Below, in pieces: positions 1,201-37,184 of a DNA stretch of 64,000 bases; position 1 is the stretch's first letter, and each line of letters starts with the position of its first letter. The stretch is from Coleophoma eucalyptorum (lineage: Eukaryota; Ascomycota; Leotiomycetes; Helotiales; Dermateaceae). The stretch lies in contig JALRME010000004.1 of assembly GCA_026120035.1 (NCBI GenBank), forward strand, positions 1 to 64,000, written 5' to 3'. The notes below the pieces were generated by a model. The model saw only the letters and a program-made list of their open reading frames with translations. It searched no databases and had not been told where the DNA came from. A program made the position numbers and the translations under genes.

Positions 1201-1289
1201 TTAAAGTAAAAGTAGTGTATTATACTAGAAAGTAGTACACTCGCTTGTATGATACACTCGCTTATCATATACGTTACCTACTATAATTA

Positions 1290-6198: not shown

Positions 6199-6201
6199 GA
6201 T

Positions 6202-10156: not shown

Positions 10157-11283
10157 CTATTTCGGGAGCTTAATTGGCTTGGCTTTTTCACTTGATTCTA
10201 CCCAGCTGTACCAACAAACCCCACCCAATGTCATAATCATGCCAATTCCGTTCCAAAACCCGATCCTTAGATTGAACATGTATATGCCAAGTAGAATAAC
10301 CAAGCACTGCTTCAAGTTGGCGCACACAGCCATCGTCAAAGCTCCTACCAATTCATTTGCTTTGAAAGATGAAATATTCTGTGCAAACGCGAGAAGACTA
10401 TTCACCAGTAGGGCTATCATTGTGGTCGACGGTATGGCGCCCATCCCCACCGATACAAACTTGTCAACCAGCTCTCGAATTTCTCCAGAAAGACCTGCAT
10501 AGATGAGACACTGTACTGCAGCAATGGGGCACATGCGTAGCAGAATCTCTATAGGCTGTAGTTTCAATGATCCCGTCATTAATTGATTAGTCGCTATAGC
10601 CTTGTGCATAGGCAATATTAGCCATAGCCAATTTTTATATATAGGCTAAGCCCATGGGAAAGTTCAGAGCTGACCTTAATAGATGCCAAAATGACTCCAA
10701 ATGTGCTAACTGAAACCCCAACAACTGTGAAATAGTAATCGCCGTACGTTGCCATGCCGATGCCTAGGACAACGGGCAAGAGAGACAAGTAAATTACAGT
10801 GGGATACTTCTGTCGATAGAGTACCCGGTATATCAAAACGGTACAGATAGGACATGTAGATCGTATGATCTGATGGAAAGGAAGTGAAACCAGGGATCTG
10901 ATTTACTTTAGCACATGTCATTCCTACATCAACGGGTAGGCATACAAAGAAATGTTTGACATAGCGATATTCACAGAGAAAAGTGTAGAAAACAGGAGCA
11001 GGATGATATTGTCTCTCGTTTCCATTCGAGTCATTCTGAAGTAGCCCGCATTCTTGAGCAATAGACACCCGAGCGTCGTGAAGGTCGCGTGAGAAGTTGT
11101 GAGTAACCACGGGTATGCAAACTGGAGAAGATTGAGTACACGCTCTCTGTCGAGACCAGTACAGGATCTGAGATGGGAACAGGGAAAACATACCTTCCCA
11201 AGAACCAATTTATTAAATACACTAAGAGAGAGATTGATAGTAAAATACCAGGACAAATGCGTGATCTTTCTTTTGGTAGACAT
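10157..11283 (-). CDS. Triose-phosphate transporter (TPT/DMT) family, nucleotide-sugar type
   Basis: Exons 11283-11194, 11121-10946, 10897-10675 and 10600-10157 join in frame (introns 72, 48 and 74 bp) into 310 residues. The protein is a multi-pass membrane protein of the drug/metabolite transporter superfamily. Diagnostic blocks are the first helix ending FNKLVLGK, then VSLPFHQIIRSTCP, ATYGDYYF, and ATNQLMTGSLKLQPIEILLR. Fungal members of this group move nucleotide sugars or phosphorylated C3-C6 compounds across Golgi or ER membranes; the substrate cannot be read here. The start Met lies just before the first membrane helix, so the cytosolic tail is short. The next gene (GT25-like) is divergent, with about 670 bp between. 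It is a plausible donor supplier for the glycosyltransferases that follow. Confidence 0.85.
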
Positions 11284-11957
11284 AATTTATCCAGGCCTCC
11301 AAAGGGATAAAAACAGAAATCAAAATGCAGTCTTCGAGAAGAAACTGAGTATATCTTGATTGAAGAAAATCAAAGTTGCAGTGATAACAGTTAGAAGATC
11401 AGCGATATTTTCGCATCGTTTAAGGACGATGTCAGACTTTGATTATCCCCAGTCCTCCAAAACTTACGTCGTAACTATAGCTTCAGCGCTAGGCCCTATC
11501 AAATCCAGGGTGCTACCAAAATTCCGCCAGAATACCACTTTTCTTTTAGAAACGACCTATTGTGGCGTTTTGGACTTCTGTGCATGTCTTGAGACTACCG
11601 GGTTTAATTTACGTTTATTCGTCACGAACGGCGCGTCTTGATCATTCCATAAAGGAGAACACTGTTGTATTCAGGGGTTATATTCAGGGGTTGGAATTAC
11701 AGTTGAGGTTTTCCTGTGTCCTTGCATCAGACGGAGAATAATGATCACCTGTGTAGAACGGCAAGACATGAAGGGCCGAAAGCTTAAGGGGTTATATCTA
11801 CTCCTCACATATTGAACCTCTCCACTCCTGTTCATAGTCAGTTTTTAAGTATAGCGTATATACTCTGCTATGCACTATCATGTTCATATTCTAGTGGGAA
11901 ATATGGAGTTGTTTTATAACTGGAATTTTGAGCTACTTCATTTTAAAGAATTACAAA
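11284..11957. other. Divergent intergenic region
   Basis: It separates the transporter (minus) from the GT25-like gene (plus) and must hold both promoters. An open frame at 11360-11641 has no recognisable domain and I do not call it a gene. Confidence 0.4.
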
Positions 11958-13146
11958 ATGGATCTCAAACCAGGATTTTCAGTGTTGAGTTTTCGTTTTC
12001 CACGACGCTTTTATGTCACATTAGCCACATCTTTGCTGTTTGTTATTTATTTCCTATCTTGTCAAAAATTGTCTCCCATTTCGGACACCGCAACTCTCCT
12101 TACCACCCAAAACTCTACTCTCGGTTTTGGAGCAACTATCCTTATATCTCTCCCGGAAAGAACTGATCGACGCGATGCAATCTCTCTACTCACTTCTATC
12201 TCCAACATTACAATTACGCACAATATAAATGGAGTACATGGTGAGAGTATTGTTGAGAAAGCCAAGCCGTATGGGAAAGCTGTGGATGACGTTGACGATG
12301 CGCACTGGGGTAGCTGGAGGAGCCATCTAGATGCCTTCAAATATATTGTGGACAATAAGATTGCCACAGCCCTAATATTAGAAGATGACGTTGACTGGTG
12401 GGTCCTATAGTCTTTAACTGCTCTCCAAATCTAACTGAAAAAAAGAGGTAGTATACTGACCTAACCTCAGGGATCCTGAAATCAAAAGTCAAATGATGTC
12501 CTTTGCCCGAGGCCTTCGCTCATCAAATTTTCGCCCCCCATGGGATAATTCTGAGTTGATACATTTTCCATACGGAAATGACTGGGATATAATTCATCTT
12601 GGAATATCCCGTATCTCTCCGGCACCACCGCCATTCACAAAACTATCGACGACTTATCAAGATATGTCTCTTCCTCCAGGTCCTGTGACTGATAAGGACT
12701 GCAAAGATGGTCAACCTTGGTACTGCTTTGTACCCCTCTTGCAGGCACTGGCAACACCACCTCGATCTCGAGCTATCGTTCCAACGAGCAATTCAATTGG
12801 TCTGGTTGGGATAGCCGTAACATTTCGTGGAGCTCAGCGACTCCTCTACTCTCTTAGCTGGCATGGATTGGACACAGGACTGGATTGGAGTATTCATGAT
12901 TTATTGGAAAGTGGAACATTGACGGGTTGGACTGTGGTTCCCCCGCTATTTGGACTCTGGGCCACCGGAACGGCTGCTGACAGTGACATCCGCCCCTCCA
13001 AGAAGGACGCGAAGATTATGGGTTCAAATAACCTACTTGGTATTAGTAAAGGATTATTCCATAGCACAAGGAAGATGTTGGGTAAGTTGATAGAGGATGA
13101 GACTTCATGGGAAAGGTTGAACAAGTTGATGAAAACCATGCCTTGA
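11958..13146 (+). CDS. GT25-like glycosyltransferase, type II membrane
   Basis: Exons 11958-12397 and 12471-13146 (73-bp intron) give 371 residues. The start at 11958 has AAAATGG context and leads into a short cytosolic tail and a membrane anchor (about residues 16-32). The luminal domain shows the family 25 pattern: ILISLPERTDRRD, then HWGSWRSHLDAFKY, and ALILEDDVDW (acidic residues 142-146), the metal-binding region. Animal GT25 enzymes add galactose to collagen hydroxylysine and bacterial ones build lipopolysaccharide; fungal members are uncharacterised. Probably Golgi. It stands with the transporter, PLOD-like and GT34-like genes. Confidence 0.82.
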
Positions 13147-14670
13147 CTTTTCTGAACTATTTAGTTTGATGAGCCTCTGACGTTGACATAACCGACGAAT
13201 AGTAGGTTACAGTACTACGCTTCATTTGGGCATGTGTGGTCGATTCTACATTCATGACGGGTGAATGAGTTAATCTTCTCAGATATTATTAGCTCACTTT
13301 ATGGGGCGGACAGTTTGAGAGAAGCACAAAATAGTATAATAGAGCCACGGCATGGTCAAAGTAAACGGTTAGACCAAATATGGCGCCCACATTCCACGAG
13401 TGACATTCCCTCCTTTATTCACCAGATTGGTTATTCAGTCTTATGAAAGCACCAGAGGAGATCTCCTTGTGCGCCTCTATTCCTGAAACACTAGCAAGAG
13501 GTGTTGCGAGCTCTCCAAAGTTTATATCATGTGGCGGCTAGTCATGTGGTGTATGAGATAGATTGTACCAACGTTTATGGAGCAGTAAGATTTACAGAAT
13601 TATTACTTTTCGCAAAATAGAAATACTTAGCAGGATATGAGCCCTCTGAGAAACAGGAGTGAATTGATAAATCACGACAACCATTCAATTACCCTATAGT
13701 CAGTACTCGTCGGTGTTATACAGTTTTGAGTCGGTATCATGGTAAAAATTTCAAAAAGATGAAATACGTTAATAACCCATTTGGTTTAGGTTCTAAACCA
13801 CCATCAATGAATGAAAACTTAAACCAACAAGCCACATTCCTCAGAGCATGCCTGAAATCACTGTCAGTAAGCTTTGATTACTCATTACTCAATCTAGGGG
13901 AAGAGAGCCCAAAAGAATAAGAGACTAGGCGACGTAAAAGCTAACTCAAATTCACAGCTGGATGATAGTGGTACTGATTCAAAAGCCCTCGGCAATCAGA
14001 AGAAACGATTAAACTGTCTGTTGCTACAGATACTACTGGTTAATATCAACAACATCAAGATATATCTCGTGTTTTAAGAGTCCTAGTATCTCTCAGTTGT
14101 GCTGGTTGTATTTTCTACACATCGATACCTTCTCAGCTACTTACAAGTTTTCCTTCCAATGTAGACCAATGTTCGTTTTAAGCAAGTCAAAGAAAACTTT
14201 CTGTTGCCGTATTCAATACACAACTGTGACAAGTTGACGAGCTATACCGAGGGCCTCGATGGTTTGTGTTATATCTGGCTTTGTGGAATATCAGTCATAT
14301 AATTTCAAGCCTTGATTTAGTCCCCAGGGGGAAGATCAGTTTATGAGATGCATACATATTAGAGAGGTACCTTCCCTCTGCACTAATGGACAGACATGAA
14401 TGCATAAAAACTTGTTTTTTTAGGTTGACCTTTCTGCTGGAGTAACTAGTGTTTGGCAAGAAAAGAAGTTGGAGGAAATTAATAGAAGCAGCCCTCTGGT
14501 TTTGGGAAGAGCCTGTTTTTTAAACTTCTTAGCCGGTTAAATATCTCTGCTTCTAAAGGTATGGGCCAGATTAGATATTCAACAACAAACCCTATATTAG
14601 CTGGTTAATTAAATATTTCGAAAATAATACACCTTAGCGCTTAGCTAAAAGCTATTCGATGTTCTTTCTT
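13147..14670. other. Gene-free stretch of 1.5 kb
   Basis: Short AT-rich frames only, none with a recognisable domain or codon pattern. Two genes converge here (GT25-like plus, PLOD-like A minus), so both 3' ends lie in it. Confidence 0.4.
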
Positions 14671-16392
14671 TTATCGAAACAGTTCCTGTTCATCATTTCC
14701 ACATAAATCTTTCCACTCAATCCAACTCCCACTATCTGTTTGTATACCCCCCTTCTTCTCTACTGGACTCCACCACTTTGTTCCAGCTTGATCAATCAAT
14801 ACAGGGCTACTCGGAGCATGGATATGCGCATGAAGCAAACTTTGTGCATACGGCTGCCACCACATTTGTGTCCACATCTCAACTCGAAACCTCTTCATAT
14901 CATTCATCCACGCGTTATGATGCACTGCCACAGGTACATTCCCTATCCATAAGTGTGTATACAAAGGAATATCTTCCCAGGTTAAGCTGATCGTCAAGTT
15001 TTGGTCTTGTTGTGAGAAATCCCCACCTTTATCTTTAATACCTCTTGCTGGAGGTTCAGAGAGGGCTAAATCTCTCGGCAGCTGGCGTACGTATGGACTT
15101 TTGACATGCCACCACTTGGATGCTTCCTTCCGTGCTCTAAACACTACCCAATCTGCATCCCTCTCAGCAAACACTGTTGCGTGTGATAGATCGCTGGAAT
15201 AATCAAGTCCTAGTCCGAACTCCGTCTGGGTAGAGTCAGGTTGCTGCTCCATTGTTTCCCGTCGTGGATGCGGCAGTAGCATGTTATCACGGTTTCGTTC
15301 ATGTTCGGTACGCAGCCTGAGAAATTTCCGTACCCGGTAGAGCCAATACTGAATGCATGAGAGACGTTGACTTCGTATCAACTCGCGCTGGTATTCCTGT
15401 GCGCCAAAAATTTCGTTGAGCACACCTTGATCACTGCCCCCATGCGCATCTTCTAGCATTCGGGAATTGGCGCGAGTGAGTAAGCGTCTCAGGTCTTGAA
15501 CGGGACCAAGCATGAATCCGGCATTCATGGCGTTTTGACGAGTGTTCAGATAAGGATTATCCACGTCAGGAAAAGGTTGGTCTGTTTTAGGGCCATATAT
15601 ATCTGAAGGAAGGGGTGACGGTGGGATGGCGAAGCAGGCAATTTCGTCCGCATTATGGGGCCAGCAGAGCTTCTGTGCGCTGAATATTATCCGCTGCATC
15701 ATTTGAGGAGGGGCTTTGGATACTCCTAGACGCTGTGCAACGCGCTTGTTGGCTTGTGCGTTGATAGCATGATAACGTGTTATGAGGATGTCAGGCCTCA
15801 GCTGAAACCACGTATCATAGGCGTCAACAACAAGAACGAGGTCATTGTCACGTTCTGAGCCCAGTAAATTAAGATAATCCAAGACGCCAGTTATTTTGGC
15901 TAAATGGCTTCCGCCACTGGCTAGAGACCCATTGTCGTAATTCTTACCCCAATTAATGATGATAGGAGTGGAGTAATTCAGAATAGCAGCGCTGAGGACT
16001 GTTTTGCAAAGATTGGTATCTGGTTTCGAGGCTGGAATAAGAAAGTGTAGATACGATTGGGACGGTATTTGGCTCGCATTATTTCCAGGTTCAAGCGGTC
16101 GAAGAATCTGTCTCGTTAAGCAGATTGTATTAGTCCAGAACGAAAGTTTTAGATTTTCAAAGGTCAGGTCTCGGCCGAAGTGAAAAAATGACAAAGGACT
16201 ATAGTCCGCTGAAATTTACGACAAAATCTCAGAACCCCAGAATCAATGGAATTTTGAAGATGGAACCCAGTAACATACCAATTCTTCATCATGGCGAATC
16301 CGTGATACAGGCATAACATAGAGAACGCAAAGTAGGAGTGAGCAGAGTACGGTGAATACTCGCCTTTGCCCACGGCTCGTAGAACGAAGCAT
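14671..16392 (-). CDS. PLOD-like glycosyltransferase A (first intron problematic)
   Basis: The large exon (16208-14671) encodes about 511 residues resembling the glycosyltransferase domain of procollagen lysyl hydroxylase/glucosyltransferases: HFLIPASKPDTNLCKTVLSA, then VVDAYDTWFQLRP (the D-x-x-D metal site), CWPH, and NAGFMLGP followed by GGSDQGVLNE. It has no in-frame Met near its start. An upstream exon from ATG 16392 encodes MLRSTSRGQRRVF and a membrane anchor (CSLLLCVLYV). The consensus GTATGT donor at 16278 with the TTTCAG acceptor at 16209 leaves the frame off by one. A weaker GTTACT donor at 16274 restores it (551 residues). So either an unusual donor is used or exon 1 carries a 1-base defect. 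Paralogue of 27505-29302. Confidence 0.7.
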
Positions 16393-17357
16393 TGCTACTA
16401 TCACTCTCCAACACTTAAAGTACCAAATTCTTTGGGTGTCATAAGAAGATAGCTCAAAATGAGCATAGTAGGGGGCGGCCGGCGCTACACCTTCAATAAT
16501 CTTACTATAAAAGGGCGATTTAGTACAGTGTATCAGTATTTTCTGGAAAGAATTGAAATCAAAAAAAGCTCAAATGTGAAATACTGGAAGAAATTAAGGG
16601 ATTGTACTTGTGTTATGGTTAACCCTTCAGCAAGTCTGCAAGGAAAAGTGGTGTACCGTGTAAGGAGAAGCGATTAGGTTACCCGTCGTCACTTTCTTGA
16701 ACCTTTACCACACTCGAATAATCGTAACATCTTAGTCAGTTCCTACTGCGTGCTCAATAAAGGCTATAAAGTCACAAAGTAGTATACACAAATAGATACT
16801 TATCACTAGAACCTGTACAAGGAAACATTCAATTGATACTGGGGCAGAACTCAACAAACTAGAAACTTTCTTGCGAGGATGATGATTTCATTCACTTGCC
16901 TGACTCGGCATAGGTAGATAGGGTTATTCTAATGAATAATTCGAGTTACCGAGTAGTAGGATTAAGAATTTGACACATTTGTTTAGTCGGAAGACTGGTA
17001 GGATCAAAAAGATGCAGTACATAATCAGACATCACTCGTACATTATTTGGGCCTTGAATATTAAACATTTATTATATGAAGATTCAGTGAAGCCCGAAGA
17101 AGAGAAGAAAATGAACTCTTATGTTTATCTTCCTTGAATTGAAGCAGTTGCTGCCAATTGTCTAGTAATATATTGCTTATCAACCCATGTGTTGTTAAAT
17201 AGCTATGCTATGTTAGTGCCGCTCACTACATTTAATTCAATTGATATGCTCCATCTCAGCGATAGTCTTGTCGACAACTTTAGTACCAGCACTGTTATGA
17301 CTACTAGAATTTGCTGCTTTCAGCCAGGTACTACTCTATATCAAGTAGTTTGCCATG
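16393..17357. other. Intergenic, no gene seen
   Basis: AT-rich, with only short frames lacking recognisable features. It holds the promoter side of PLOD-like A and the 3' side of the GT34-like gene. Confidence 0.4.
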
Positions 17358-18680
17358 CTAATCTACACTCAAACCTAGGCTGACGTTTCTGGCCTTCATA
17401 TTTTCTTTGTGACGCTTCCTCTCCTTCTGTGTCTCTTCATCATCAATCACATCATCTTCCGGAGGCTGTATTTTGGCTAGAATTTCCTCCCGTTCTTCCA
17501 TAAGCATCTGCATTTCCTTTAATTCTTTCTGGGCTCTCTCTTTCTCCTCTATTGTCTTCTTTTTGCGTGTCAGTTTCATTTTGATCGCATGCACTTGCCA
17601 GTATCTCATAGATTCATCTTTCAATGCTTGAGCGATCCCTGGATCACTCCATTCTGGGAGGCCTTCATCTACTCTCTGGATCCATGGGAGCATCCAGCTA
17701 GAAAGAGTCATCTTGCTGACACCAGCAAAACTCACTATCATATCACCTTTCAGCACCTTTGCAGAATAATGGTTATCAGCTAACTCTCCGTCATCGAAAT
17801 CGGATGTGGACAGGGAGCCACGATAGATTCGTTTTCCACGTGCACTGAAGCGATCGCTGATTGGGAACGAATTGAACCATCGATGCGGAGTAACCGTCCA
17901 GTTTAATCGGAAGTTGATGTCCTCATGCAATAGGTGTTGGGCGGCGCTTTGGTCGTGAAACTTTGCGAGATTTTCTGGATTGTATAGAGGGTACGCCACA
18001 ACTGCTGCTAGGAGTGTGACTGACCATGAATGAACGCGGATTATGAATGCACCAAGATCGATGTTTCCACGATCTTCTGTGACAATCATATGAATATTGT
18101 GATAGAACGGCTCGTCTGATGGGGGAATAAAAGTCTCCAAAGGCGTGTGAGGATTCAAGACGACTGTTTCTATATCAAACCAGCTGTTCATAGTCAGAAT
18201 TCAAATGCCTGAAACTAATTTGCTTAATACTTACAAAAGCCACTCTAGTCGCTCAGTCTCTGGCTTTGCCAATTCTGCAATCAAGATGGAGAGAAGGTAT
18301 GCTGCGCGGTTGAACGTGCCAGTAGTCATGGCAGGTTCATCATCACAACCGATCCCCAGTTGCTGCTCCGAGACAAAATGACGATACCCATGTATCTTAT
18401 TCTGGACATGATGAGTTTGCAAGGCGCGATTTTGCACCGATTTAATTTCGCGCTCAAGACTAGTGGCGAGAGATACCTTTGCAATTTTTGAATGGTGTAT
18501 TTGACTCGCTGCGTACTCGATGTCATTATCCCATTGGGTATTCCTAAAATTGCTCCAATGTGAGCCCAAATCTGTACACCTGGCAAGGTAAATGAGTGCC
18601 AGGAGAGCAGTAATTACAAGGGACGTAATAATTGTTAGCTGTTTGAGCCCGTAGCTCTTGTGAATAATCGCTATCGCCAT
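17358..18680 (-). CDS. GT34-like glycosyltransferase lacking the DxD motif
   Basis: Exons 18680-18235 and 18183-17358 (51-bp intron) give 423 residues. A membrane anchor lies near residues 15-33. The GT34 (Gma12/Mnn10) order is recognisable: EWLFWFDIETVVLNP across the splice, a later NIDLGAFIIRVHSWS block, HDQSAAQ, and GDMIVSFAG. Where GT34 enzymes have D-x-D, this has D152-I-E154. The His usual before the last AG is Ser. The C-terminal 80 residues form a charged helix rich in Lys/Glu, likely a coiled coil. It may be a catalytically weak or regulatory partner of the canonical GT34-like protein next to it (19783-21069), since GT34 proteins often work in complexes; that is inference. Confidence 0.72.
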
Positions 18681-19782
18681 TCAAGAACTTATATGTGCTA
18701 AGTGAGTATAATAGAGCTCTTTGCAGGGCAAGTTTACACCTCAAACATAATGATCTCTCTTCCTTGGTTAGAAGGCGACGTGCTAGAAACTATGATGTAG
18801 TAGCGATATCTAAAAAGGGGGAGGGGGATTTAAGGGGCTAAAAGAATTTCCTCATTTCTGAAGTTCGTTCCATTGGTTTAAATCAAGCTTTATTGCATCT
18901 ACATTCCAGTTGAAATGCCTATCGTGGCTCCCTTGATACACCAATTGGCACACGCCCCAGGTAATAAATATTTCTCAAACCTCATCACTATAAAAAAATT
19001 AGTTGCAGATTCAATCCATTTCCAAGTAAATTCCCAATATATTCTTCACACGGCCTAATGTAGTTGACAGATTCTATCTTTAATAAACAATTTCAAGTTA
19101 GATCCTGTCGTTTGGGAATGATATATATAGCCTATTACGTTACAATCCGAGCGTTCGGTTGTAATGTTAGCCTTTTGCTAGGCGGTATGGCCGTGTTGGG
19201 ACACGCCATACCATGTATTTACAGAGATAATACGCCTGTAAACAACAATCCATTATATCATAAAACACGTGATTCGATTCGTCCTGTATCCTTTTCAAGA
19301 ATTTGGACCTTTTTGATACTTTGGGAGAGCGAAAGCACACGTCAATTGGGATGCAGATCCTGGGTACGTAACCAATCACGATTCTGAGGTTACCCTAGCC
19401 CTCTAGCATTCGAAGATCAGCCCGCACGTGGCTCGTTATTGAAAGGCATTATCAATGCTTTAGGCAGAGCTCTAACCGCCATTAGAGACCATGTTATAGA
19501 CCATCTAATAGCTAATGATAATTAGAAAGTTCTATATAAGTCTGTAGTCACTACTAGGAGGTGGGATGGGTAGTGAATGAAAGTCAAGCTAGTAACTCGA
19601 TGGCATATGCCGTCAAAGAAGACAAGTAATTGCCGTTGCTCTCCTAATAGGTATATTGACAGCTATTTATGCCGATTGAGCTCCGTCACAAGTTTTAGTG
19701 TTTTGCCGTTACTATTTTTCGTAACATTTATCTGAAGCAGCAGAAATAGACACTTTCTCAGCAGCTGAAATACGGTCCTGGC
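18681..19782. other. Gene-free stretch of 1.1 kb
   Basis: AT-rich spacer between two co-directional GT34-like genes. A frame at 19064-19387 has no recognisable domain. I see no TATA box or repeat worth naming. Confidence 0.4.
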
Positions 19783-21069
19783 TTAGAGCCCCTCGACGTC
19801 TTCCTTTCTGTTCCAGTAGGCGTGCCACCTCTCTGAGCATTCATCCTTAACCCAGCAACCAGCCAGATGAACTACAAGATCACCTTCTCTCCATCCGTTC
19901 TTTGCTCCGCCAATCGCATATGCGTTAATGCTACGCTGCTTTAGTAGGCCAATATGCGAGCGAATACTGGGATGGTGTCTTATCAAATGCAACTTTAGAA
20001 TATGAGGATTAGTGCAGTTCTTTTCAGGCTCATTGAGGGCTCGCGACATACAAGGGCGTCCTGCTCCTGACCGGGCCAATCTCTTTTGACGAAGAATGGA
20101 TCTCGCCACATATCTACGAGCATCTTCGTGAACAAACTCCTACGAATGAAGAGGCTGCCTGCATTTATCCCGTTATGGTCCTGCGTAATTAAGAGATCAA
20201 TATTCGAAAAGTCGGTCTCTTCTTCTGATGCTGCAAAGACTCCTATAGGTTTGGATTCATCGATCAGGAACTCGGTGTCAAACTCTATCGCACGCTGCAT
20301 AGCAGCATGGGATAGTATATGGTCATTTAGAGACACAGTAGGCGTCATGATAATTGCATCAAGATCAAGCCACCATACCCATTGAGCCTCAGGGTGGACT
20401 TGGAATGCTTCAATTATGGACGGAATTTTGGCCCAGACCTTCACTTCTCAAGTTAGCTGATATTATCGCAGATTCTTTAGTGAGATAGATTTCTCTATCT
20501 CAAGAGGGAAAACACTAACTCACCGGGTGTGCGTCTTTTAAATCATACTTCGAAATATTAACAAAATAATTCATGTAGCCATGGTTATCACAATATCTTT
20601 GTCTGTTCTCTGCTGTTGCGGTCAAGATATCCTCGATGCCGCCATTATGCCCCTTGCCATCGCTTGCTGTCAGAAGAATTACTTGATCTGGTCGTGGTCC
20701 ATTTGGATCATAAATCATATCAGCCGACACGTCGAACACTTGCTTCATTGAATTGAAGTCCCCAAGCGGCTTTGCCTGCGGTTGCACACGCCGAGAATCA
20801 TCTTTTCCAAGTAGCGAGGATTTCCCGTGTGCATCAGCAATTAAGGCACTTGGCCGTTCGACTAAGCTCTCTTTAATTATAGAAGATTTATCTTTAGTGG
20901 TCTGGAAGCCCATCCGGTCATTTTCGTCATGCGAAGTCTTCAGTGCCTTGTTTTCCTCGCGTTGCATGTAGTTCAAGGAAATACCCAACACCAAGCGAGT
21001 AGAGCTTTCGAGGGACAGCAATATATGAAAGGACCCAAAAATTAGTAACCCAGTGGAGATTACCACCAT
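19783..21069 (-). CDS. GT34 Gma12/Mnn10-type glycosyltransferase
   Basis: Exons 21069-20524, 20438-20052 and 19992-19783 (introns 85 and 59 bp, both with AAG acceptors) give 380 residues. A membrane anchor occupies about residues 3-20. The catalytic domain has WVWWLDLDAIIM (DLD at 207-209), the GINAGSLFIRRS block, GQEQDAL continuing after the splice as HLIRHHPSI, and GDLVVHLAGCW. Family members are Golgi alpha-galactosyl- or alpha-1,6-mannosyltransferases using UDP-Gal or GDP-Man. All key motifs are present, so it should be active. The anchor begins almost at Met1, so a further short upstream exon cannot be excluded. Confidence 0.87.
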
Positions 21070-22046: not shown

Positions 22047-24700
22047 ATGTTACCTTATGTATTTATTCTCCTCATTATCAGTTTCTTTGGTCATGATGGA
22101 ACGTTTGCCAATGCGGGCCCTATTGTCGAGCTAGGGACGCCTGATAGTGCCTGTCCAGCTAACTCACCAATTGTATTCATAACGCCTCAAGTCGTTCAAT
22201 ACAGGGTTCTAATAAACCAGTTCTTTATATCAAATACTATTATTAATATTAGTGGTATCATTCTCAATATAGATAATGCCCCCACTCAAGTGAGCACTAT
22301 CTTAACTGCAACGTCAACAACGACAATATTCTCTACAATTACAACCACTACCACCACTTCTACAACGTAAGTGCATCAGCATACAATGGGATAGCCTTAA
22401 CGGATTCAGAGAGATTCAATCTCCAACATCAACCTCTAGCAGGTTTGTGGTAGCTCTTGTTCCACCACGAAACATCAGAAAGCGACAACAGGACCAGGAC
22501 TCCCCAATAGGATTTATTGGCACCGGTGGACTCACCTCTCAGCAATGCACTACAAGTATTACCTTCGATATTTCGAATAGTACTTTATTCAGCGGTGGCC
22601 TGCAATATTCAACCAGCTTTGGTGTACAATTCCAACAGTTCCTGCCGTCATCAGTTGTTGGAAATATCACGTCGGCATTTACAAGAGAAAGGGGGTTTCT
22701 CTTATGGAACAACCCCTTATTTGCAAATGGAACTGCAATATTCTGCTTTCTTGGGGGAACTATACAGGTTTATTTTAATGGTGTTCCTCCACCAATCTGC
22801 TACCCAGTAGGTCTCAGAGTTGTCACCGATTGCAATGCATATACTTCAACAACTGTTTCTACTCCAACAACCATTCCCACTACAACAACCACACCGACTT
22901 CAGCAACTGCACCTACGTCTACTACAAAATCTATTCCTACTACTCTAACAACCACTCCTACTCAAGCATTCACACCCACTTCAACAACTATACCTACTAT
23001 AATAACTATTCTTACAAGCCCAACAACCACCCCTACCTCAATAACTACACCCACTGCAACAACGACTCCTACGTCAACAACTACACCCACTTCCACAACA
23101 ACACCTACCTTAACAACCACCCCTACGTCAACAACTNNNNNNNNNNNNNNNNNNNNNNNNNNNNNNNNNNNNNNNNNNNNNNNNNNNNNNNNNNNNNNNN
23201 NNNNNNNNNNNNNNNNNNNNNNNNNNNNNNNNNNNTACACTCACTTCCACAACAACACCTAACTTAACAACCACCCCTACGTCAACAACTACACCCACTT
23301 CAACAACAACACCTACCTTAACAACCACCCCTACGTCAACAACTACACTCACTTCCACAACAACACCTAACTTAACAACCACCCCTACGTCAACAACTAC
23401 ACCCACTTCAACAACAACACCTACCTTAACAACCACCCCTACTTCAGCTACTACCCCTACGTCAACAACTACACCCATAATAACACCAACAACTACACCA
23501 ACTTCAACAACTACCCCTACATCAACAACTACGCCCACTTCAACAACCACTTCTACTCCAACAACTACACCTCTTTCAACAACCCCTACGTCAGCAGCCA
23601 CACCTACTTCCACAACCACACCCACTTCAACAACTACACCTGCTTCGACAACTACACCCACTTCAACAACCACATCTACTCTAACTACACCCACTTCAAT
23701 AACCACTGCTGCTCCAACAACTACATCTACTTCAACAACCAGTTCTACTTCAGCAACTACACCCACCTCTACTTCAACTACGCCCTCTTCAATAATCAGT
23801 TCTACTTCGACAACTACACCCACCTCTACTTCAACTACGTCCTCTTCAACAACCAGTTCTACTTCGACAACTACACCAACTTCAACAACCACCACTACTT
23901 CAACATCCGCACCTACTTCGACATCCACATCTACTCCAACTACACTCACTTCGACAACCACTTCTGCTCCAACAACTACACCTACAACTACACCCACCTC
24001 TATTTCAACTATACCCTCTTCAACAACCAGTGATACTTCAACAACTACACCAACTTCAACAACCACAACTACTTCAACATCCGCACCTACTTCAACAACT
24101 ACACCCACTTCAACAACTACACCCACATCAACAACTACACCGACTTCAACAACTCCACCAACTTCAACAACTACACCCACTTCAATAACTACACCGACTT
24201 CAACAACTACACCAACTTCAACAACTACACCCACTTCAACAACTACACCAACTTCAACAACTACACCCACTTCAACAACTACACCTATTTCAACAACTAC
24301 CCCTATTTCAACAACTACACCCGCTTCAACAATCACTCCTACTTCAACAACCACTCCTACTTCAACAACTACACCCACTTCAACAACAACACCTACTTCA
24401 ACAACAACTACTTCTACTCCAACAACCACACCTATTTCAACAACAACTACTTCTATTCCAACAACCACACCTACTTCAACTACGCCCACTTTAATAACCA
24501 CCCCTACTTCAACCACTACTTCTACCCCAATAACTACAACTACTTCGACAAGTAGTCCTGTACCAATAACAACTTTAACAACCACGCCAGCCTTTAACTC
24601 TACTAATACAACCTCTAGCTTTAATTCGACACAAATAAACCGTAATACTACTTTGATTACGACCTTTATACCGCGACCTAGAGGGCTTCTCTTTTATTAA
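22047..24700 (+). CDS. Secreted Thr/Ser/Pro-rich mucin-like protein
   Basis: Exon 1 (22047-22366) starts with a signal peptide (MLPYVFILLIISFFG, cleavage probably after FANA). Intron 22367-22442; exon 2 runs to the stop at 24698-24700. After a short Thr run comes a Cys-containing globular part (GGLTSQQC, LLWNNPLFANGTAIFC, PICYPVGLRVVTDC) that resembles the fungal DUF7908 domain (from memory). About 570 residues of TTTPTS-type repeats follow, then an Asn-rich tail with several N-glycosylation sequons (NST, NTT). No GPI signal or terminal membrane helix is visible. Such a stretch would be densely O-glycosylated. A run of 99 N interrupts it at 23137-23235. The Thr/Ser frame before and after the gap agrees only if the true gap length is 2 modulo 3, so 99 is only an estimate. 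Total length is near 860 residues. Confidence 0.8.
22856..24580 (+). repeat. Coding minisatellite (18-bp units, 54/108-bp higher order)
   Basis: The basic unit is about 18 bp encoding T-T-T-P-T-S variants. Around 23040-23450 units group into alternating 54-bp blocks (TLTSTTTPNLTTTPTS then TPTSTTTPTLTTTPTS), a 108-bp higher-order repeat that flanks the assembly gap. Towards the 3' end the units diverge (APTSTS, SSTTSD) and are interspersed with STSTTPSS blocks. Confidence 0.85.
23137..23235. other. Assembly gap (99 N)
   Basis: Unknown bases inside the minisatellite. The flanking higher-order repeat explains why assembly failed. The real length may be quite different. Confidence 0.99.
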
Positions 24701-25560
24701 AGTGTTTTAAATGTAATCTCTAGTCTGTAAGTAATACAATAATTTTCACCATACACAACTTTATACCCCAAATCTATTTCAACCCAGGCTAAGTCTTGAC
24801 ATAATTATTAGTGACTTAAAATGCTTATGTCTTTAAGCTTCCTCAATCTACTAGGCCTAATAAATTTCTCCAGCTGGAGTACTGTTGTAGATAGCTTCTT
24901 TATATTCTACTTGTGAGATAGTACAATGTTCTTCAATTTATATCCGCACAAATAGCACAAATTTCTATTAGCTATAAAATATGAAATCTTACACAAGTTC
25001 TCAAGCTCCATCAGATCAATACTTTTCTCATTCTATTTGGTATCATTTTCTCAAAGAGCAAAGCCTCTCCTTTGGTACCTGGGCGGAATACTTCCGCCAA
25101 GACGTCGAGCACTTTCGCTCTCGACAAGCGTCTATAGCCAATGCAATTCTCTGATTTTTCGGGATGGTCCCTTATTCAGTAAAGTAGATCTGCTGTGGAT
25201 TTCGAAGTATTTGGTCTGCTACGAAGGAAATGGGCTAGATCTCTCGTATACCCTCTCACTTCTCTCACTCATAAATATTACATGCTTTGCTTCCTTCTCG
25301 TGCCCAGTTCCAAGTCTCCAGCATCTGTGGCTTGAAAATGAGGCAGCTAAGATAAACTAACAGTGTCACCAGTGTCACTGTTCCTCCTTCATTCCAGGTA
25401 TCATGCTGGGAAAGGGGGAGTGACACCAATCTGAAGAGAGTTTGTTTTCGGAAATGTTTGTACTACCCCTTGCTTTCGTTCGATATAAGAGAAAATAAAT
25501 TTTCTATCTTGTTTGATTCATCTTAATACGAGGAAATGTTTCGCAGAACGACTGTAGGAA
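24701..25560. other. Intergenic, no gene seen
   Basis: AT-rich. A frame at 25037-25360 has no domain, and its composition looks non-coding. It should contain the promoter of the next gene. Confidence 0.4.
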
Positions 25561-26997
25561 ATGCTGGTGGTTTCTAGATCATTGCATCGAGTCCGCCGGA
25601 GGTCCTTTTCTAAATGTTACCCTAGGACAGTTTTAATAATTTGGGTTCTCCTCGCTTTATGTGTTTCTTGCATTCTCCATATGATATTCTTCCTATGTAA
25701 CGACTTCATTCGACAACCCAGCTCAACCCTCAACTTTCCTCAGCTAGACTCAGATTCTTTCTCAGACAGTAAGCACATACATAGCGAAGCACGACCTTTG
25801 TCCGCATCTGATCACGATGATTTCTTGCCAGGCTCTCTCAAAAGTGAAATATCACAGTCAAGGACAACAAATAGACCACTTCAAATAGCGGTTCTAGAAA
25901 CGGGGGGATCACACGATGAAGTCGTGGCGGCCATCTTGCAATCCTTTTCACAATGGGAAAGCGTACATATTCAACCCTATTTGCTCTTGCAGAGGTATAA
26001 TATTCAAGCTATCGTGAATGATTTCCGCCCAAAAGGTTTTATTTTGGCAGCAAGAGCACCCCAAGAGTTTCCAAATGATTTGGAGAGGACGATGCCTCAA
26101 ATACTTGTTATGGCAACTTGCGAATTGGACGCCACCAAATTCAAACTGGAGCTGGAGATATTGTTGGAGTCAGGGAGAACTTATTTGTTTTGTGTCATCC
26201 ACCACGCAGAAAGGTGGTCAACTGCAGAATACGCTACGATATTTACGCCTTGGGTACAGCAAAATATGGTGCGATTCCTGGCCCTGAGTCCTCATACGGC
26301 ACGATTTTTTGCCAGTAGCACCAATCTCTGGAACGTTACACCGGCACCAGACGTGGAGACCTTTATTCCAGTGTTTCCTGTTTCAAATATTAAATCAAGC
26401 TCCTCGGAGCCGAACATGACTTTGGAATTTGCCCTTCAAGGCGATTATTTTCCAAACCACCGTGACTACCACTCTATCTTTGATGGACTGGCGGAGCTAC
26501 TAAGCAATGAAACCAAGCAACCAAACAACTACAAGCTCATTCTTCGTATGCTTGGCCACGGCAAGCACCCCAATGTTCCGTCCGCCATAGAGCAGCAAAT
26601 TGTCTTTGACGACTCACTGCCGTACCCAGAATTCTACTCAACTCTTTCCTCTGTCTTTGCCCTGCTTCCCGCCTTCGCCTCAAACGACTATCTTGACCGC
26701 AAGGCCTCCTCCTCTATTCCAGCATCTTTAATTGCAGGAATCCCTCTTTTGGGAACGAGAGACATCCTCAATTCATACACATACCTAGACCCGGACATGG
26801 TCTGGGTGCAGGAGGAGGGCGAGTCAAGTATGGATGTCATGGCACGCATTGTGGCAATGCCGTCAGAAGAACGCTGGGCAAGGGTACTCCTGGTCAGGAA
26901 GATCCGGGATGAAATAATATCGAATAACACTGAGATAGTTAAGGGATGGATTCAAGAAGCCTTAGGAAAGATGGGCTATCTACAGGTGGTTCACTGA
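25561..26997 (+). CDS. Type II membrane GT-B-like glycosyltransferase (unassigned family), copy 1
   Basis: Single exon of 478 residues starting ATG 25561. A basic cytosolic tail precedes a membrane helix at about residues 22-46, then a Ser/Asp-rich stem to about residue 105. The luminal part has a Rossmann-like first strand (LQIAVLETGGSHDEVVAA) and, near the end, SSSIPASLIAGIPLLG followed by WVQEEGESSMD. Both blocks are shared with 29878-31167 and the second reappears in the relic at 6202. The layout (two halves, an SxP-ASL-AG loop near the nucleotide-binding half) suggests a GT-B glycosyltransferase. I cannot place it in a known family, and the catalytic claim is inference from fold-like pattern and neighbours. 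Confidence 0.68.
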   Translation: MLVVSRSLHRVRRRSFSKCYPRTVLIIWVLLALCVSCILHMIFFLCNDFIRQPSSTLNFPQLDSDSFSDSKHIHSEARPLSASDHDDFLPGSLKSEISQSRTTNRPLQIAVLETGGSHDEVVAAILQSFSQWESVHIQPYLLLQRYNIQAIVNDFRPKGFILAARAPQEFPNDLERTMPQILVMATCELDATKFKLELEILLESGRTYLFCVIHHAERWSTAEYATIFTPWVQQNMVRFLALSPHTARFFASSTNLWNVTPAPDVETFIPVFPVSNIKSSSSEPNMTLEFALQGDYFPNHRDYHSIFDGLAELLSNETKQPNNYKLILRMLGHGKHPNVPSAIEQQIVFDDSLPYPEFYSTLSSVFALLPAFASNDYLDRKASSSIPASLIAGIPLLGTRDILNSYTYLDPDMVWVQEEGESSMDVMARIVAMPSEERWARVLLVRKIRDEIISNNTEIVKGWIQEALGKMGYLQVVH

Positions 26998-27504
26998 AGA
27001 TCAAGATTTGCTGGTTCAATATATATGGCTTTGATACAATAAGTTAACTACAATAATATACTAAAAGTTATGCAGTAATCCAATAGATTGGACTTGCTAA
27101 AAGAGCCTTATCAAGAAGAATCTGTGGTACAATCATCGCATTAAATCTCTCTTCATTTCCTACCGTTAAAGTTAAAATACGGCTATTGTAGTGTGAAATT
27201 ATTTTGATGAATTGGTAAAGTTCAAGAAGCACCTTTATTATACCTAAGCTACTATCATACCGTATATGGAAAGGTGCAATTATGTCTTCCTTAAACTACA
27301 CAGACAGGTTCTAAGTCTCAAAAAGTTCTATTTGACGAGCCTTATGAAGACATATATGATGCGGTGAAAATTTCAGGGACTTCCTGACTTCTTGTTTTAC
27401 TTCTCCATATTTCCAATCTAATACCAAAGAAAGCTTCACTGTTTAAAATTCATCCTCGATCTCGTATCTCTCTTTTTTAACCAAAGCTCTTCGGAGAAGA
27501 ATTT
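26998..27504. other. Convergent 3' spacer
   Basis: AT-rich region between the ends of copy 1 (plus) and PLOD-like B (minus). No gene or repeat seen. Confidence 0.4.
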
Positions 27505-29302
27505 TCATATCTCTCCTTTTTGTTTTTCTTTTTCTAACCTTTCCTCATATACGCGGAATTTGGGTATTTTTGGAGTGCCGGCTAATATGCCGTTGAATAA
27601 TATATCTTGGTAGCGACCACAGATTGTGTTCCAATCTTGCCATTCACCCTTCGCTGTCCACATCCCACCGTTATCCTGACGTCGACTGTTATAAGAACCT
27701 TTCCACCAAGTTCGGTTTCTTCCTGTCTTGGGGTCAATCGTAGTCGCCAACGGACCCTTAGGAGCTAGACTACTTCTATAAAGCAAGTGTTTCCCCCATG
27801 GTTTTCTGACCCACCAGTGTTGTTTCCACCAAAGGTCAAGGTAGTTTTTTTCTCTGATGCCATTTAAATGAATCAACACTGGCACAGTATTTGATATCTT
27901 GTTTACTGCCAGAGGGACATCTTCCCAGGTTGTATTGAAAGGAAGTTTGTCCGCCATATCGGATGGTTTGTGCGTTTCATTAAGGAGGCGTGAAGCAATT
28001 GGTGATAGAGACATAGCTATATCTGGTGGAAGGACAAAATTCACCTGGCTATTTGAGTTAGTAACAGCTTTCTGAGAATTGATAATCTGGTCTGACGATT
28101 CCAATGAATTGAAAGTGACCCATTCAATGTCTGCAGCTGCATAAGCGTTTATATGGAATAGGTGAGATTCATAATCTAAGCCTATGTGGAATTCTCTTTG
28201 CTGATTTTGTTGAAACTTTGTGAACTTGTTCGTCGCTCCTTCGTCTTCTTGTGACTTTGAATCTTGTTTCTGGTCTTGAGAATCCAACTGTGAATTGAGG
28301 TCTTCAAGGTGTGATTTGTCGTTATTTTTGAGCGTATGCCGATGGGATTCCTGCTCGCCAAACAACTCGCCGAAATACCACTGGTCACTATCGCCATGAA
28401 ACTGCTCTTCAACTCTTCGATATGCGGCTTCGTAAATAGTACGCATTTCTGAGACCGGACCCAATGCAACACCAGAATTAAGCCATCGTGGCCGCGTGCT
28501 ATTTTTACTACCGTTGTCCGTATCTTTTCCAAAAATATTGTCTGGGAGAGTGGAATTGGGAACTGCATAGCATGCTACGCATTGCGGACTTTGCGGCCAG
28601 CACGATTTATCCGCACCATAGACCACTGTCTGCTTGATATCATACTCAGCAAGCATGACTGTATGAAATTCCTCTGCTAGGATGGCAGCACGTTTGTTAT
28701 TTAAAGCAAAATATCGTTGGATGAGAATCTCTGGACGTAACTGAAATCGTACATCGTGTCCATCCACAATTAAAACCAAATCCCCATCATTTCTCGGTGG
28801 CATCTCTCGAAGGTATTCTAGTGTTCCCTTGATCTTTGCTAGGTGCATTTTGTATTCATCCTCCGGATCTTCCTTCATTGCCCAATTTATAGCGACTGGA
28901 ACTGGATAATCAAGGAGCGTCGCGGAAAGCAGAGTGCGACATAGATTTGGGTTCGTACTAGTAACAGGTATGAACAAATGGAGCATAGATGTATCGATAG
29001 ATTCATCAAATGTGTTTGTATCGTACACTGTGGAAGTGCCTGGAGAAAATAATAGAGATCGATATATATTTGAGATCTGTAACATGATTAGAATCAACTG
29101 GTTTTAGGAGGAGATTCAATCCAGGGGGTCAAGTTCTTACTCCGACTAGAAAATGAATTAATAGAGTAAGGATTAATAGTATTCCTGTTCCTATCCGTCT
29201 CTTTAGAATCTTCCCCTTTAAAAATTGATAGGCGTACCGTAGGAACCGATGCTCCTCTGGTATACCAAATAGCCCATAATATTTTCCTTGCCCCAACATC
29301 AT
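27505..29302 (-). CDS. PLOD-like glycosyltransferase B
   Basis: Exon 1 (29302-29141, 54 codons) encodes a basic tail and membrane anchor (ILLILTLLIHFLVG). A 64-bp GTAAGA-CAG intron leads in phase 0 to exon 2 (29076-27505). Total 577 residues. The luminal domain shows LHLFIPVTSTNPNLCRTLLS, LVLIVDGHDVRFQLRP (D159-x-x-D162 metal site), SCWPQ, LNSGVALGP and GDSDQWYFGELFG, as in PLOD glycosyltransferase domains. No 2-oxoglutarate dioxygenase domain is present, so it is the transferase alone. It is the better-preserved paralogue of 14671-16392 and is divergently paired with copy 2 of the GT-B-like family. Confidence 0.8.
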
Positions 29303-29877
29303 TGAGATGATTATATGATATCGCAAAGGAAACCATATAAACGCGAACTCAACTCGACATATCAGGACATCTAGTATGGTGTATTTGATATAATGGCATT
29401 CAAGCTACAAGGTCACCTTCGTTCATTTTTATAACCTTCCTTGCAGGCCAAAACTCAAAACTCTGATACCAATTGAGAAAAGAAGGGTCCATGAGCGTAA
29501 TACGGCCCTATCGCAAATACATTTAGATTGATTACGCTACAGAAAATTCTTCGTTGAACTAGGGTACTTGGGCCCCTGCAGCACGATCTTGACTCGCATC
29601 GATAAAACATGGAAATTTGGAAAAACTTTGGCAATCTTTGGAACAGGATGCACCTGTGTCCTGGCGAAATTGATGTAGGGGGGATCAGGAATGAGAATCA
29701 GCCACCGCCCTTGCTCTAGCTGTCGCCATCCATTGACGGATACTCAACAAAGATAGTTGTGATTTCATGTAAGGTGCATAAGTGAGGAATCGAGAATGGA
29801 ATTCGCCCGTCCCAGCGATAATCGTCACAATAGAATAAACAGTAGCCACACATAAGCCATGGTTATATCGTCATATT
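29303..29877. promoter_or_regulatory. Bidirectional promoter region
   Basis: The 575 bp between the start codons of PLOD-like B (minus) and GT-B-like copy 2 (plus) must serve both genes. No convincing TATA box or factor site was identified by eye. The divergent arrangement favours co-expression. Confidence 0.5.
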
Positions 29878-31167
29878 ATGATGAACCATACGAAATTTTT
29901 GCTCAACATGCTTCACTCTTCAACTTCTACGAAGGTGAATCTGCCTAAACGGTACATATATCTTTGTATAATTCTCATTATATTGGTTATTCTCTCTGTA
30001 CATGCATGTCATTTCTTTCAACGCGCGAAACTCTCCTCTGACACCTACCATCGAAAAGTTCGAGTTGCTATCATTAACTCAAGGACATCGCATGACGAAG
30101 TTCTTGTGCCGCTACTAGAGTCCTGGCTCCAAGTCCCTGAGGTTACGATTAAAACCTATCAAGCAGGGTATCGATTCAGCATGGATACTCTTATCACAGA
30201 ACAGCACCTTCCAGAAGCAATGAAACAAAGTGCTTATGTTGAAGATTTCTCTAATTTGAGGAAGGGTGATGAGAATCTTCCAGATATTATCGTCTCTACA
30301 ACCTGTATGAAAGACATCGAGCTGTTAAGAGAATCGTACAGCATGCTTCTCAAACATCACCACACTCGTTTATTTTGCATGGTTCATCTTGCAGATGAAC
30401 TTACAGGGAAAAAGCTGGCGCTGATAAAGGACTGGATTGAGGCTGAACGTATCGACCTTTTCACCTTAAGTCCTCATGTGACGGAGTTCATAGAAAGAAA
30501 TATAGTAAAGAGAGGAACTCACCAAACACCAGTTTATACTTTCATTCCGGTATTCAGCTTTGAATTACAGCCAAGCCAGGAAGCAAACATAGGCCGGGAA
30601 GCAGGATTTTCTATCCAAGGCGAATATGAAAAAGGGAGGGACTATACTCTGGTCTTTGATCACCTGCATAAATATATTAAAGATGCGGAAGGCCAAAACA
30701 AATCAGCCGATATGATCAATCTACACTTGGTTGGGTGGGGTCGACGTCCAGACGTGCCAGAGCATCTCCAGGATCATGTTATCTTTGATGAAAGACTCGA
30801 TTACATTCCATTCTATACAACATTGGCACAGTCTGATGCTGTGTTGACTGTCTTCAGTAGCGAGGAATATTATAAATCGAGAGCGTCAAGCTCTATCCCA
30901 GCATCTTTGATTGCAGGAACAGCAATCGTAGGCGATAAAAAGCTGCTTGGGACATATAAATATCTAAATGAGAATATTACTTGGATGCAGCGAGAAGGCG
31001 AATCTGAAATAGAGACAGTAGGCCGGGTCTTAGCTTTAAGTCGTGAAGAGAGGGATGCCAAAAAGGCTGCAGTGCGACGATTTACTAGGGATAGAATTGC
31101 TCAGAATCGGATTTTAATACGAGAATATGTTTTACAGGTAGTCGAAGACTTTCCTATTGTATGGTAG
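29878..31167 (+). CDS. Type II membrane GT-B-like glycosyltransferase (unassigned family), copy 2
   Basis: Single exon of 429 residues. Two Met codons start it (29878 and 29881). Membrane helix at about residues 26-44. The N-terminal strand reads VRVAIINSRTSHDEVLVPLL; the middle has LFCMVHLAD, ALQGDYF-like IQGEYEKGRDY, and LHLVGWGRRPDVP. The C-terminal half has SSSIPASLIAGTAIVG and MQREGESEIETVGRV. It aligns along its length with 25561-26997 but lacks the long stem, accounting for the size difference. The donor half of a GT-B fold is plausible; family and substrate are unknown. Confidence 0.68.
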   Translation: MMNHTKFLLNMLHSSTSTKVNLPKRYIYLCIILIILVILSVHACHFFQRAKLSSDTYHRKVRVAIINSRTSHDEVLVPLLESWLQVPEVTIKTYQAGYRFSMDTLITEQHLPEAMKQSAYVEDFSNLRKGDENLPDIIVSTTCMKDIELLRESYSMLLKHHHTRLFCMVHLADELTGKKLALIKDWIEAERIDLFTLSPHVTEFIERNIVKRGTHQTPVYTFIPVFSFELQPSQEANIGREAGFSIQGEYEKGRDYTLVFDHLHKYIKDAEGQNKSADMINLHLVGWGRRPDVPEHLQDHVIFDERLDYIPFYTTLAQSDAVLTVFSSEEYYKSRASSSIPASLIAGTAIVGDKKLLGTYKYLNENITWMQREGESEIETVGRVLALSREERDAKKAAVRRFTRDRIAQNRILIREYVLQVVEDFPIVW

Positions 31168-37141: not shown

Positions 37142-37184
37142 CTTTCAAGCGATTGTACTTAGGCTCTCACGACACTTTCTCTCC

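Follow-up and report, generated by a model that had tools for sequence, protein, structure and literature searches.

Do the glycosyltransferase genes crowded at one telomere-capped contig end of the 45 Mb genome of Coleophoma eucalyptorum work together, and if so on what? To our knowledge, few clusters of genes for the surface or matrix glycans of fungi have been described. The window, by which we mean the whole 64,000-nucleotide stretch analysed, begins at the end of contig C46 (1,746,494 bases), and a preliminary description of it had proposed that the 21 kb between 10157 and 31167 hold a dedicated pathway that decorates the block's own mucin-like protein or makes a secreted glycan. Here, we describe the composition of this block and its linkage in other genomes before weighing the readings that it allows, and conclude that it is probably a conserved cluster of fungal genes that builds, sugar by sugar, a glycan destined for secretion or the cell surface and not for one dedicated substrate.

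Composition of the block

The block contains one TPT-family transporter, seven N-terminally anchored glycosyltransferases (one GT25-like, two PLOD-type, two GT34-like and two of a family for which Pfam has no model), together with a single Thr/Ser/Pro-repeat protein (Table 1), a gene set that had been proposed from the letters and that Pfam profiles, hydrophobicity and predicted folds bear out. An N-terminal hydrophobic peak (Kyte-Doolittle at least 1.6) is present in seven of seven transferases, GT34a having a second, weaker peak further inward. Single open frames in the block reach 532 aa, against a longest chance frame of 262 aa in 100 Markov simulations of 21 kb; no exon piece of the transporter, GT25 or GT34b reaches 262 aa, and these calls rest on similarity instead. 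The signature of RIP marks bases 1-6000 (composite index +0.74 to +1.27), whereas across the block, the repeat gene excepted, the index is negative and open frames are preserved. The left edge is not clean, being flanked by a polysaccharide lyase family 8 (PL8) gene and a decayed third GT-B-like copy.

Table 1. Features at the telomeric end of the window, with positions counted from its first letter
Feature	Position	Strand	Remarks
Telomere repeats (CCCTAA)n	1..97	+	end of contig C46; from sequence
Decayed third GT-B-like copy	6178..6360 (approximate)	+	2 internal stops; edge of RIP-marked stretch
Polysaccharide lyase family 8 gene	6764..9321	+	outside the block as first described; Pfam and solved relatives
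TPT-family (nucleotide-sugar-type) transporter	10157..11283	-	310 aa in 4 exons (model used)
GT25-like type II glycosyltransferase	11958..13146	+	2 exons, intron 12398-12470, 371 aa
PLODa, PLOD-type glycosyltransferase	14671..16392	-	516 aa, model with intron 16108-16278
GT34a, diverged GT34-like protein	17358..18680	-	423 aa, D-x-E replacing D-x-D
GT34b, GT34 family (GMA12/MNN10) glycosyltransferase	19783..21069	-	3 exons, 380 aa
DUF7908 protein with Thr/Ser/Pro repeat tail	22047..24703	+	assembly gap 23137-23235
GTBa, GT-B-like type II membrane protein	25561..26997	+	478 aa, no Pfam family
PLODb, PLOD-type glycosyltransferase	27505..29302	-	anchor exon 29141-29302 plus main exon; fold like that of LH3
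GTBb, GT-B-fold type II glycosyltransferase	29878..31167	+	429 aa in a single exon; no Pfam family above cut-off

The transporter matches Pfam TPT (PF03151) in two pieces, the C-terminal one at 41.7 bits (cut-off 30) and the other, under it, at 17.1; its sequence carries no indication of which sugar is carried, and we infer nucleotide-sugar transport from the family. The GT25-like protein lies just over the Pfam GT25 (PF01755) cut-off (24.6 bits against 24), with its relative in Phlyctema vagabunda at 30.6. Within the GT34 pair, GT34b scores 228 bits to PF05637 and combines the whole domain with a D-x-D motif (WWLDLD), the combination by which we recognize family 34, while GT34a reaches 33 bits (cut-off 23) over profile positions 131-230 of 238 only, carries WFDIE (D-x-E), falls short of that combination and may be a degenerate lookalike.

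For the PLOD-type pair, PLODb is over the GT_PLOD (PF25342) cut-off of 27 at 36.6 bits; PLODa, at 26.7, is just under it and is joined to its membrane anchor only via a 171-base intron with canonical ends. The predicted structure of PLODb (alignment A2: 42 of 114 matches plus two window copies) adopts the same fold as the collagen glucosyltransferase domain of human LH3, and the model of GTBb is a GT-B fold, so that both family guesses made from the letters gain support from predicted structure. The GT-B family gave no Pfam or NCBIfam match over cut-off. Alignment A1 and the GTB tree drew on all 39 relatives, three of which carry a species name, each fungal. Pattern scans, which see pattern-keeping relatives only, gave no support to a prokaryotic or viral origin, with none confirmed among 121 stretches in genome contigs and 80 viral ones; three distant PLOD-type relatives (22-29% identity) do occur in viral contigs. 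Recent local duplication was rejected as the source of the pairs: identity is 32-33% between PLODa and PLODb and 31% between GTBa and GTBb, and each pair falls in separate clades. As the genome's four PLOD-type genes in the tree (49 rows: 45 of 114 matches and four own-genome copies, the C4 copy left out) spread over three clades, PLODd grouping in a single clade with PLODa (100/99), and GTBa and GTBb over two, the members do not stem from one local duplication.

Linkage in other fungi and elsewhere in the genome

Cross-species protein searches covered three of the ten genes (PL8 counted), namely GTBb, PLODb and GT25. In P. vagabunda, the homologs of GTBb (P0001, PVAG01_01922) and PLODb (P0041, PVAG01_01924) both lie on the largest scaffold, of 6,695,449 bases (PMC12613959). 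Two further GTBb-PLODb pairs, P0002/P0043 (contig 33123) and P0004/P0044 (contig 6008), apparently share a contig, as judged from equal length and the same source and not from the contig sequences. Such equal lengths were found for three of 64 pairs within two orthologous clades, which hold the window's own GTBb and PLODb with 99/99 and 100/100 support, as against none of 4343 pairs outside them (113 of 114 PLOD matches were used, one without a length being left out), and simulation of 8 x 8 draws gave a mean of 0.0025 equal-length pairs against the three observed. The window's GT25 clusters with P0160 and P0154 (98/97), apart from six own-genome paralogs (tree of 12 of 14 matches, the window's copy and six of seven own paralogs, the C11 copy left out); P0160 shares a contig size of 50068 and three identical sources with the GTB relative P0005, and P0154 (59%) lies on the scaffold carrying PVAG01_01922 and PVAG01_01924, a placement with a 17% chance from size alone.

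Synteny, checked in part, thus held: by locus tags and equal-length contigs, the three genes searched are linked in other fungi and are not scattered in all relatives. On this sequence evidence the GTBb-PLODb-GT25 linkage is real and not peculiar to the C. eucalyptorum genome, and, with a core kept together in other fungi, the block is probably a genuine assembly line for a sugar chain that is secreted or borne on the surface.

Linkage also extends beyond the block within the genome itself. At a second locus (C39:247.4-254.0 kb), the closest TPT relative, 48% identical to the window's (remaining relatives at most 29%), adjoins two more PLOD-type genes, PLODc and PLODd, with two neighbours, a gene for UDP-glucose 6-dehydrogenase (521 bits against solved enzymes so named) and a DUF5672 gene; GT25, GT34 and GT-B were not found within 40 kb by tblastn. 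Contig C49 ends in another telomeric block, with a GT8 gene, a polysaccharide pyruvyl transferase and two GT25-like genes whose proteins gave no Pfam match.

The families also occur apart, an observation that speaks against a joint cluster. There are seven other GT25-like loci (protein query) and two other GT34 loci in the genome; the GT25-like gene on C8 has no other window families in the surrounding 20 kb, and around a lone PLOD gene on C4, 20 kb hold nothing else related to the window's proteins. Protein queries were used here, as the Pfam models proved too weak as whole-genome probes, PF25342 finding nothing, the window's own genes included, and PF01755 finding one other locus and missing the window's GT25.

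A probable shared glycan and the alternatives

In the reading that we favour, the TPT-family carrier would import a nucleotide sugar into the lumen of the Golgi or ER, where the type II glycosyltransferases would add sugars sequentially through linkages suggested by their families. The PLOD-type and GT34 families use a retaining mechanism, and both pairs are probably alpha-transferases of that kind; further steps would fall to GT25 and the new GT-B family, and the product would leave the cell either as free polysaccharide or attached to many secreted proteins. Enzymatic activity, donor sugar and product are all predictions from families and two modelled folds.

A sharper version of this reading, which we regard as a tentative possibility, is that the cluster's product is an acidic exopolysaccharide or capsule-like glycan containing uronic acid. 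Here, UDP-glucose 6-dehydrogenase would provide UDP-glucuronic acid for import by the TPT carrier and use by the PLOD-type and other transferases, and the adjoining PL8 lyase would trim or recycle the product. The dehydrogenase does adjoin the paralogous carrier and PLOD pair at C39, and the PL8 protein (exon model one among 1,428 compatible models; N-terminus, by eye, unlike a signal peptide; no further copy found in the genome) has Lyase_8_N, Lyase_8 and Lyase_8_C all over cut-off and is nearest, among solved structures, to xanthan lyase (277 bits, over the full length) and chondroitin AC lyase (271 bits), enzymes that cleave adjacent to uronic acids. Pyruvyl transferase, GT8 and GT25-like genes at the C49 end point the same way, as do relatives of GT25 (47%) in Lipomyces, whose capsule contains uronic acid. 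Precedents, each from the accessible part of a paper, are a UGD gene with GT1 as its neighbour in Wangiella (Exophiala) dermatitidis (PMC4059230) and a UDP-GlcA transporter required for the Cryptococcus capsule (PMC5790919). Against this, no dehydrogenase was found within the window's block, and a second UGDH-like gene lies on C3; the carrier is silent on its sugar and has a hexose phosphate translocator as its best solved relative; the C49 GT25-like proteins have no Pfam family; and the PL8 enzyme could instead digest plant or bacterial polysaccharide. Nor was an intact processive synthase found near the block, the nearby sequence holding only a GT2 remnant at 37.05-37.70 kb. An acidic glycan is a reasonable guess, as yet unproven.

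A wider extension, which we consider speculative and on balance doubtful, would have separate, partly telomeric 'surface-glycan cassettes' (C46, C49, C39 and perhaps C10), each with its own mix of transferase and tailoring genes, jointly making variable acidic surface glycans. The tailoring genes concerned are those for UDP-GlcA synthesis, pyruvylation, lyase and carrier. If true, the cassettes would be a eukaryotic counterpart of bacterial capsule loci, built with transferase folds of the collagen type and a GT-B family that these searches turned up in fungi only.

It is unlikely that there is no joint pathway and that fast-evolving glycosyltransferase genes merely gathered independently in subtelomeric regions. 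The glycosyltransferases at the telomeric end of C49 fit such gathering, as does the spread of PLOD-type genes and of GTBa and GTBb over several clades, but random gathering would not readily produce the linkage of these three subfamilies (GTBb, PLODb and GT25) in other fungi or the recurrence of the carrier with a PLOD pair at C39.

We hold it improbable, too, that the block is a dedicated O-glycosylation pathway for its Thr-rich protein, as first proposed. Adjacency favours it, as do a secreted-type N-terminus (by eye) and a repeat tail in which, over the 487 residues downstream of the gap, Thr makes up 55%, Ser 18% and Pro 14%. The tail is preceded by a DUF7908 domain (PF25485, 89.6 bits, cut-off 27), and the 99 N of the gap interrupt the gene so that the flanking frames do not join as written. 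However, the family has 24 other loci across the genome (42 matches, grouped by us), and in 19 of these the match covers the DUF7908 part; the enzymes would thus have no need of this particular protein, and Thr-rich tails are widespread in fungi. The protein is thus probably not the block's private target, and the label of an own mucin-like protein is not borne out; of the earlier proposal, gene linkage stands in part, through GTBb, PLODb and GT25 and the C39 locus, while the dedicated substrate finds no support.

Improbable as well is a collagen-type disaccharide, built in the manner of ColGalT1 and LH3, with GT25 adding galactose to a protein side chain and a PLOD-type enzyme adding glucose to the galactose. 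The parallel with animal collagen drawn at the outset is only loosely supported: neither PLODa nor PLODb has a lysyl-hydroxylase domain (a Pfam scan at E <= 1 gave GT_PLOD and one weak unrelated match), the block offers no Gly-X-Y substrate, the repeat protein included, and GT25 resembles procollagen galactosyltransferase 1 weakly, over a single 53-residue stretch (E 0.19).

Relation to known systems

Among the matches listed, in titles and abstract openings, this gene set was not found described, though it could still be in print, and no paper was found for DUF7908 (PF25485) or combining ColGalT1, LH3 and fungi. Lipomyces starkeyi and its near relatives are, in the part of the source available, enriched in families that include GT25 and GT34 (PMC11024372). 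The block joins a Pfam-less glycosyltransferase family and a nucleotide-sugar-type carrier with LH3-type and GT25 enzymes that lack a collagen context, points to genes whose deletion would reveal the glycan made, and offers a tractable handle on how fungal outer sugars are assembled, and perhaps diversified, near telomeres.

Its single components have relatives of their own. GTBb resembles the retaining GT-B glycosyltransferases BshA, PimA and Anabaena HepE in fold, but has no Pfam or NCBIfam match above cut-off and, by pattern scan, no confirmed relative among prokaryote genomes or viral contigs. PLODb aligns by fold with the GT domain of LH3 (PLOD3) and Mimivirus R699 at 17-22% identity, the sequence profile giving 14.5 bits only (E 0.085); unlike these, the window's PLOD-type proteins have a type II anchor and no Pfam match to the lysyl-hydroxylase domain. 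GT25, alike to the family of procollagen galactosyltransferase 1 by a Pfam score just over cut-off, shares with that enzyme only the stretch given above.

As to whole clusters, the genes for galactosaminogalactan (gtb3, agd3, ega3, sph3 and uge3) belong, we take it, to other families than those of the window's block. What the galactosaminogalactan cluster of Aspergillus fumigatus has in common with it, going by the available part of the source, is that fungal polysaccharide genes lie clustered (PMC13202872). The UGD and GT1 cluster of W. dermatitidis and other fungi sets a nucleotide-sugar dehydrogenase beside a glycosyltransferase, as at C39; it differs in comprising two genes only, with an acidic glycolipid as the suggested product, and PLOD, GT25 and a carrier go unmentioned in the accessible part of that paper (PMC4059230).

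Gene content and sequence state of the block

The block is probably a fungal glycan gene cluster with an unusual combination of families, the functions of its members being predicted from sequence. The window that contains it forms the left-hand end of C46, a contig of 1,746,494 bases in a genome of 101 contigs and 45.26 Mb; it opens with CCCTAA telomere repeats and has a strongly positive composite RIP index over bases 1-6000 (+1.27, +1.00 and +0.74); across the island the index is negative (-0.40 to -0.70), the repeat gene being the exception. Its introns, RIP signature and relatives point to a fungal origin, most likely in a filamentous ascomycete. All nine genes named in a preliminary description were found, seven of them encoding glycosyltransferases or close lookalikes, and each of these seven has an N-terminal hydrophobic stretch that fits Golgi type II proteins. 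Models free of internal stops were obtained for the transporter (TPT), the GT25, and both GT34-like, both PLOD-type and both GT-B genes. Two of them are less sure: that of PLODa, which depends on an intron of 171 bases whose ends are canonical, and that of the transporter, whose first intron has several possible acceptors. The ninth gene codes for a DUF7908 protein ending in a Thr/Ser/Pro tail and is interrupted by 99 N at 23137-23235.

To the left of the block lie a polysaccharide lyase family 8 (PL8) gene and a third GT-B copy, which is decayed and sits where the RIP-marked sequence borders on the rest; besides this copy and the block pair, no copy of the GT-B family was found in the genome. 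To the right lie RhoGAP-, ankyrin- and HET-type pieces, a GT2 remnant, whose upstream half was not among the open frames listed, and further fragments. This side had been described as decayed, which holds in part and not wholly, because it also carries two long open NLR-type genes, one of the NB-ARC/TPR type with a weak HET-s-like motif at its C-terminus and the other of the NACHT-type NTPase/ankyrin kind.

Features of the window and of related glycan loci in the same genome
Feature	Location	Strand	Remark
Truncated GT2 remnant	window 37050-37700	+	PF13641; QLLRW stretch
Two NLR-type genes, side by side	window 58281-60731 and 60815-63886	-	long, open
DUF5672 gene, UDP-glucose 6-dehydrogenase, TPT carrier, two PLOD-type genes	C39:242.5-254 kb
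GT8 gene	first 13.5 kb of C49		57.5 bits
Polysaccharide pyruvyl transferase	first 13.5 kb of C49		76.8 bits
Two GT25-like genes	first 13.5 kb of C49		likeness to window GT25
Two GT25-like genes and possible further transferase	C10:191-198 kb		further transferase 12-14 bits, under cut-off

Conserved linkage in other fungi

In protein searches, the top relative of GTBb and the second-best relative of PLODb are PVAG01_01922 and PVAG01_01924 of Phlyctema vagabunda, whose scaffold, at 6,695,449 bases, matches exactly in size the largest of the 13 in the published assembly (PMC12613959; JBFCZG000000000). In two further GTB-PLOD pairs both partners have the same contig size (33,123 bases in one pair, 6,008 in the other) and a common source, and in trees the PVAG01 and paired relatives join the window's genes in clades with good support. 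Within those clades 3 of 64 GTB-PLOD pairs share a contig size, as against none of 4343 outside, the chance expectation being a mean of 0.0025 (simulation, 8 x 8 draws). The best of 14 GT25 relatives (59%) sits on the P. vagabunda scaffold named above, a placement with a 17% chance by scaffold size alone, and another (49%) shares with the GTB relative P0005 a contig size of 50,068 and all three sources. Linkage of GTBb, PLODb and GT25 relatives in other fungi is indicated by locus tags, equal-size contigs and trees, and this conserved linkage supports the idea of an island. The next named GT25 relatives are from Lipomyces and Limtongia (44-47%), a patchy distribution that could reflect transfer or loss.

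In the relative P0144, from Lipomyces kononenkoae, a PLOD-type glycosyltransferase domain is predicted to be fused to the Ost5 domain of an oligosaccharyltransferase subunit, which may be a gene-model error, and distant PLOD-type glycosyltransferases (22-29% identity) are encoded on three viral-collection contigs.

Related loci in the same genome

The sole close own-genome relative of the TPT (48%, the others being at most 29%) lies at C39:247.4-248.3 kb, where it directly precedes two PLOD-type genes and adjoins UDP-glucose 6-dehydrogenase and DUF5672; a Zn2Cys6-like piece, under cut-off, is found nearby. In the PLOD tree, PLODd of C39 groups with PLODa (100/99 support) and PLODc, also of C39, with neither window copy. 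A stretch of 400 bases from the end of C39 resembles the window's telomere-near sequence (76% over 124 bases), which is a hint, short of proof, that this block too is subtelomeric. Contig C49 starts with telomere repeats, its end sharing a 212-base repeat with window 4939-5150 and 5985-6196 (93-94%); neither of its GT25-like proteins had a Pfam match.

The block families are not exclusive to blocks of this kind: the genome has seven other GT25-like, three other PLOD-type and two other GT34 loci. One of the PLOD-type loci, on C4, is solitary within the 20 kb read, and tblastn found no other window family in 20 kb around the GT25-like gene on C8. All six own-genome GT25 paralogs included in the tree sit apart from the window GT25 group, five forming a clade of their own together with an Aureobasidium protein and the sixth (C8) next to one from Pseudovirgaria.

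Predicted product and the collagen parallel

The block most likely encodes a Golgi pathway that builds a glycan for secretion or for the cell surface, in which the carrier would act first, followed by stepwise sugar transfer. That this glycan is acidic is a tentative extension with some backing, towards which point the UDP-glucose 6-dehydrogenase beside the TPT and PLOD paralogs on C39, the pyruvyl transferase near GT25-like paralogs on C49, and the PL8 gene, which among solved enzymes is closest to xanthan lyase (277 bits) and chondroitin AC lyase (271 bits).

The proposal that the island decorates its own mucin-like protein found no support: across the whole genome, 42 matching stretches, by our own grouping, form 24 family loci besides that of the block (the DUF7908 part matched in 19, the first exon alone in five), which makes the repeat protein an unpromising choice as a private substrate. 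DUF7908-type loci lie on C57, C26, C68, C7, C12, C31 and other contigs, some in long open frames, of up to 2311 amino acids among those listed.

The presence of GT25 together with PLOD recalls collagen glycosylation, a parallel that had also been drawn. Neither a hydroxylase domain in the PLOD-type proteins nor a collagen repeat in the repeat protein was found, and the window GT25 resembles procollagen galactosyltransferase 1 only slightly.
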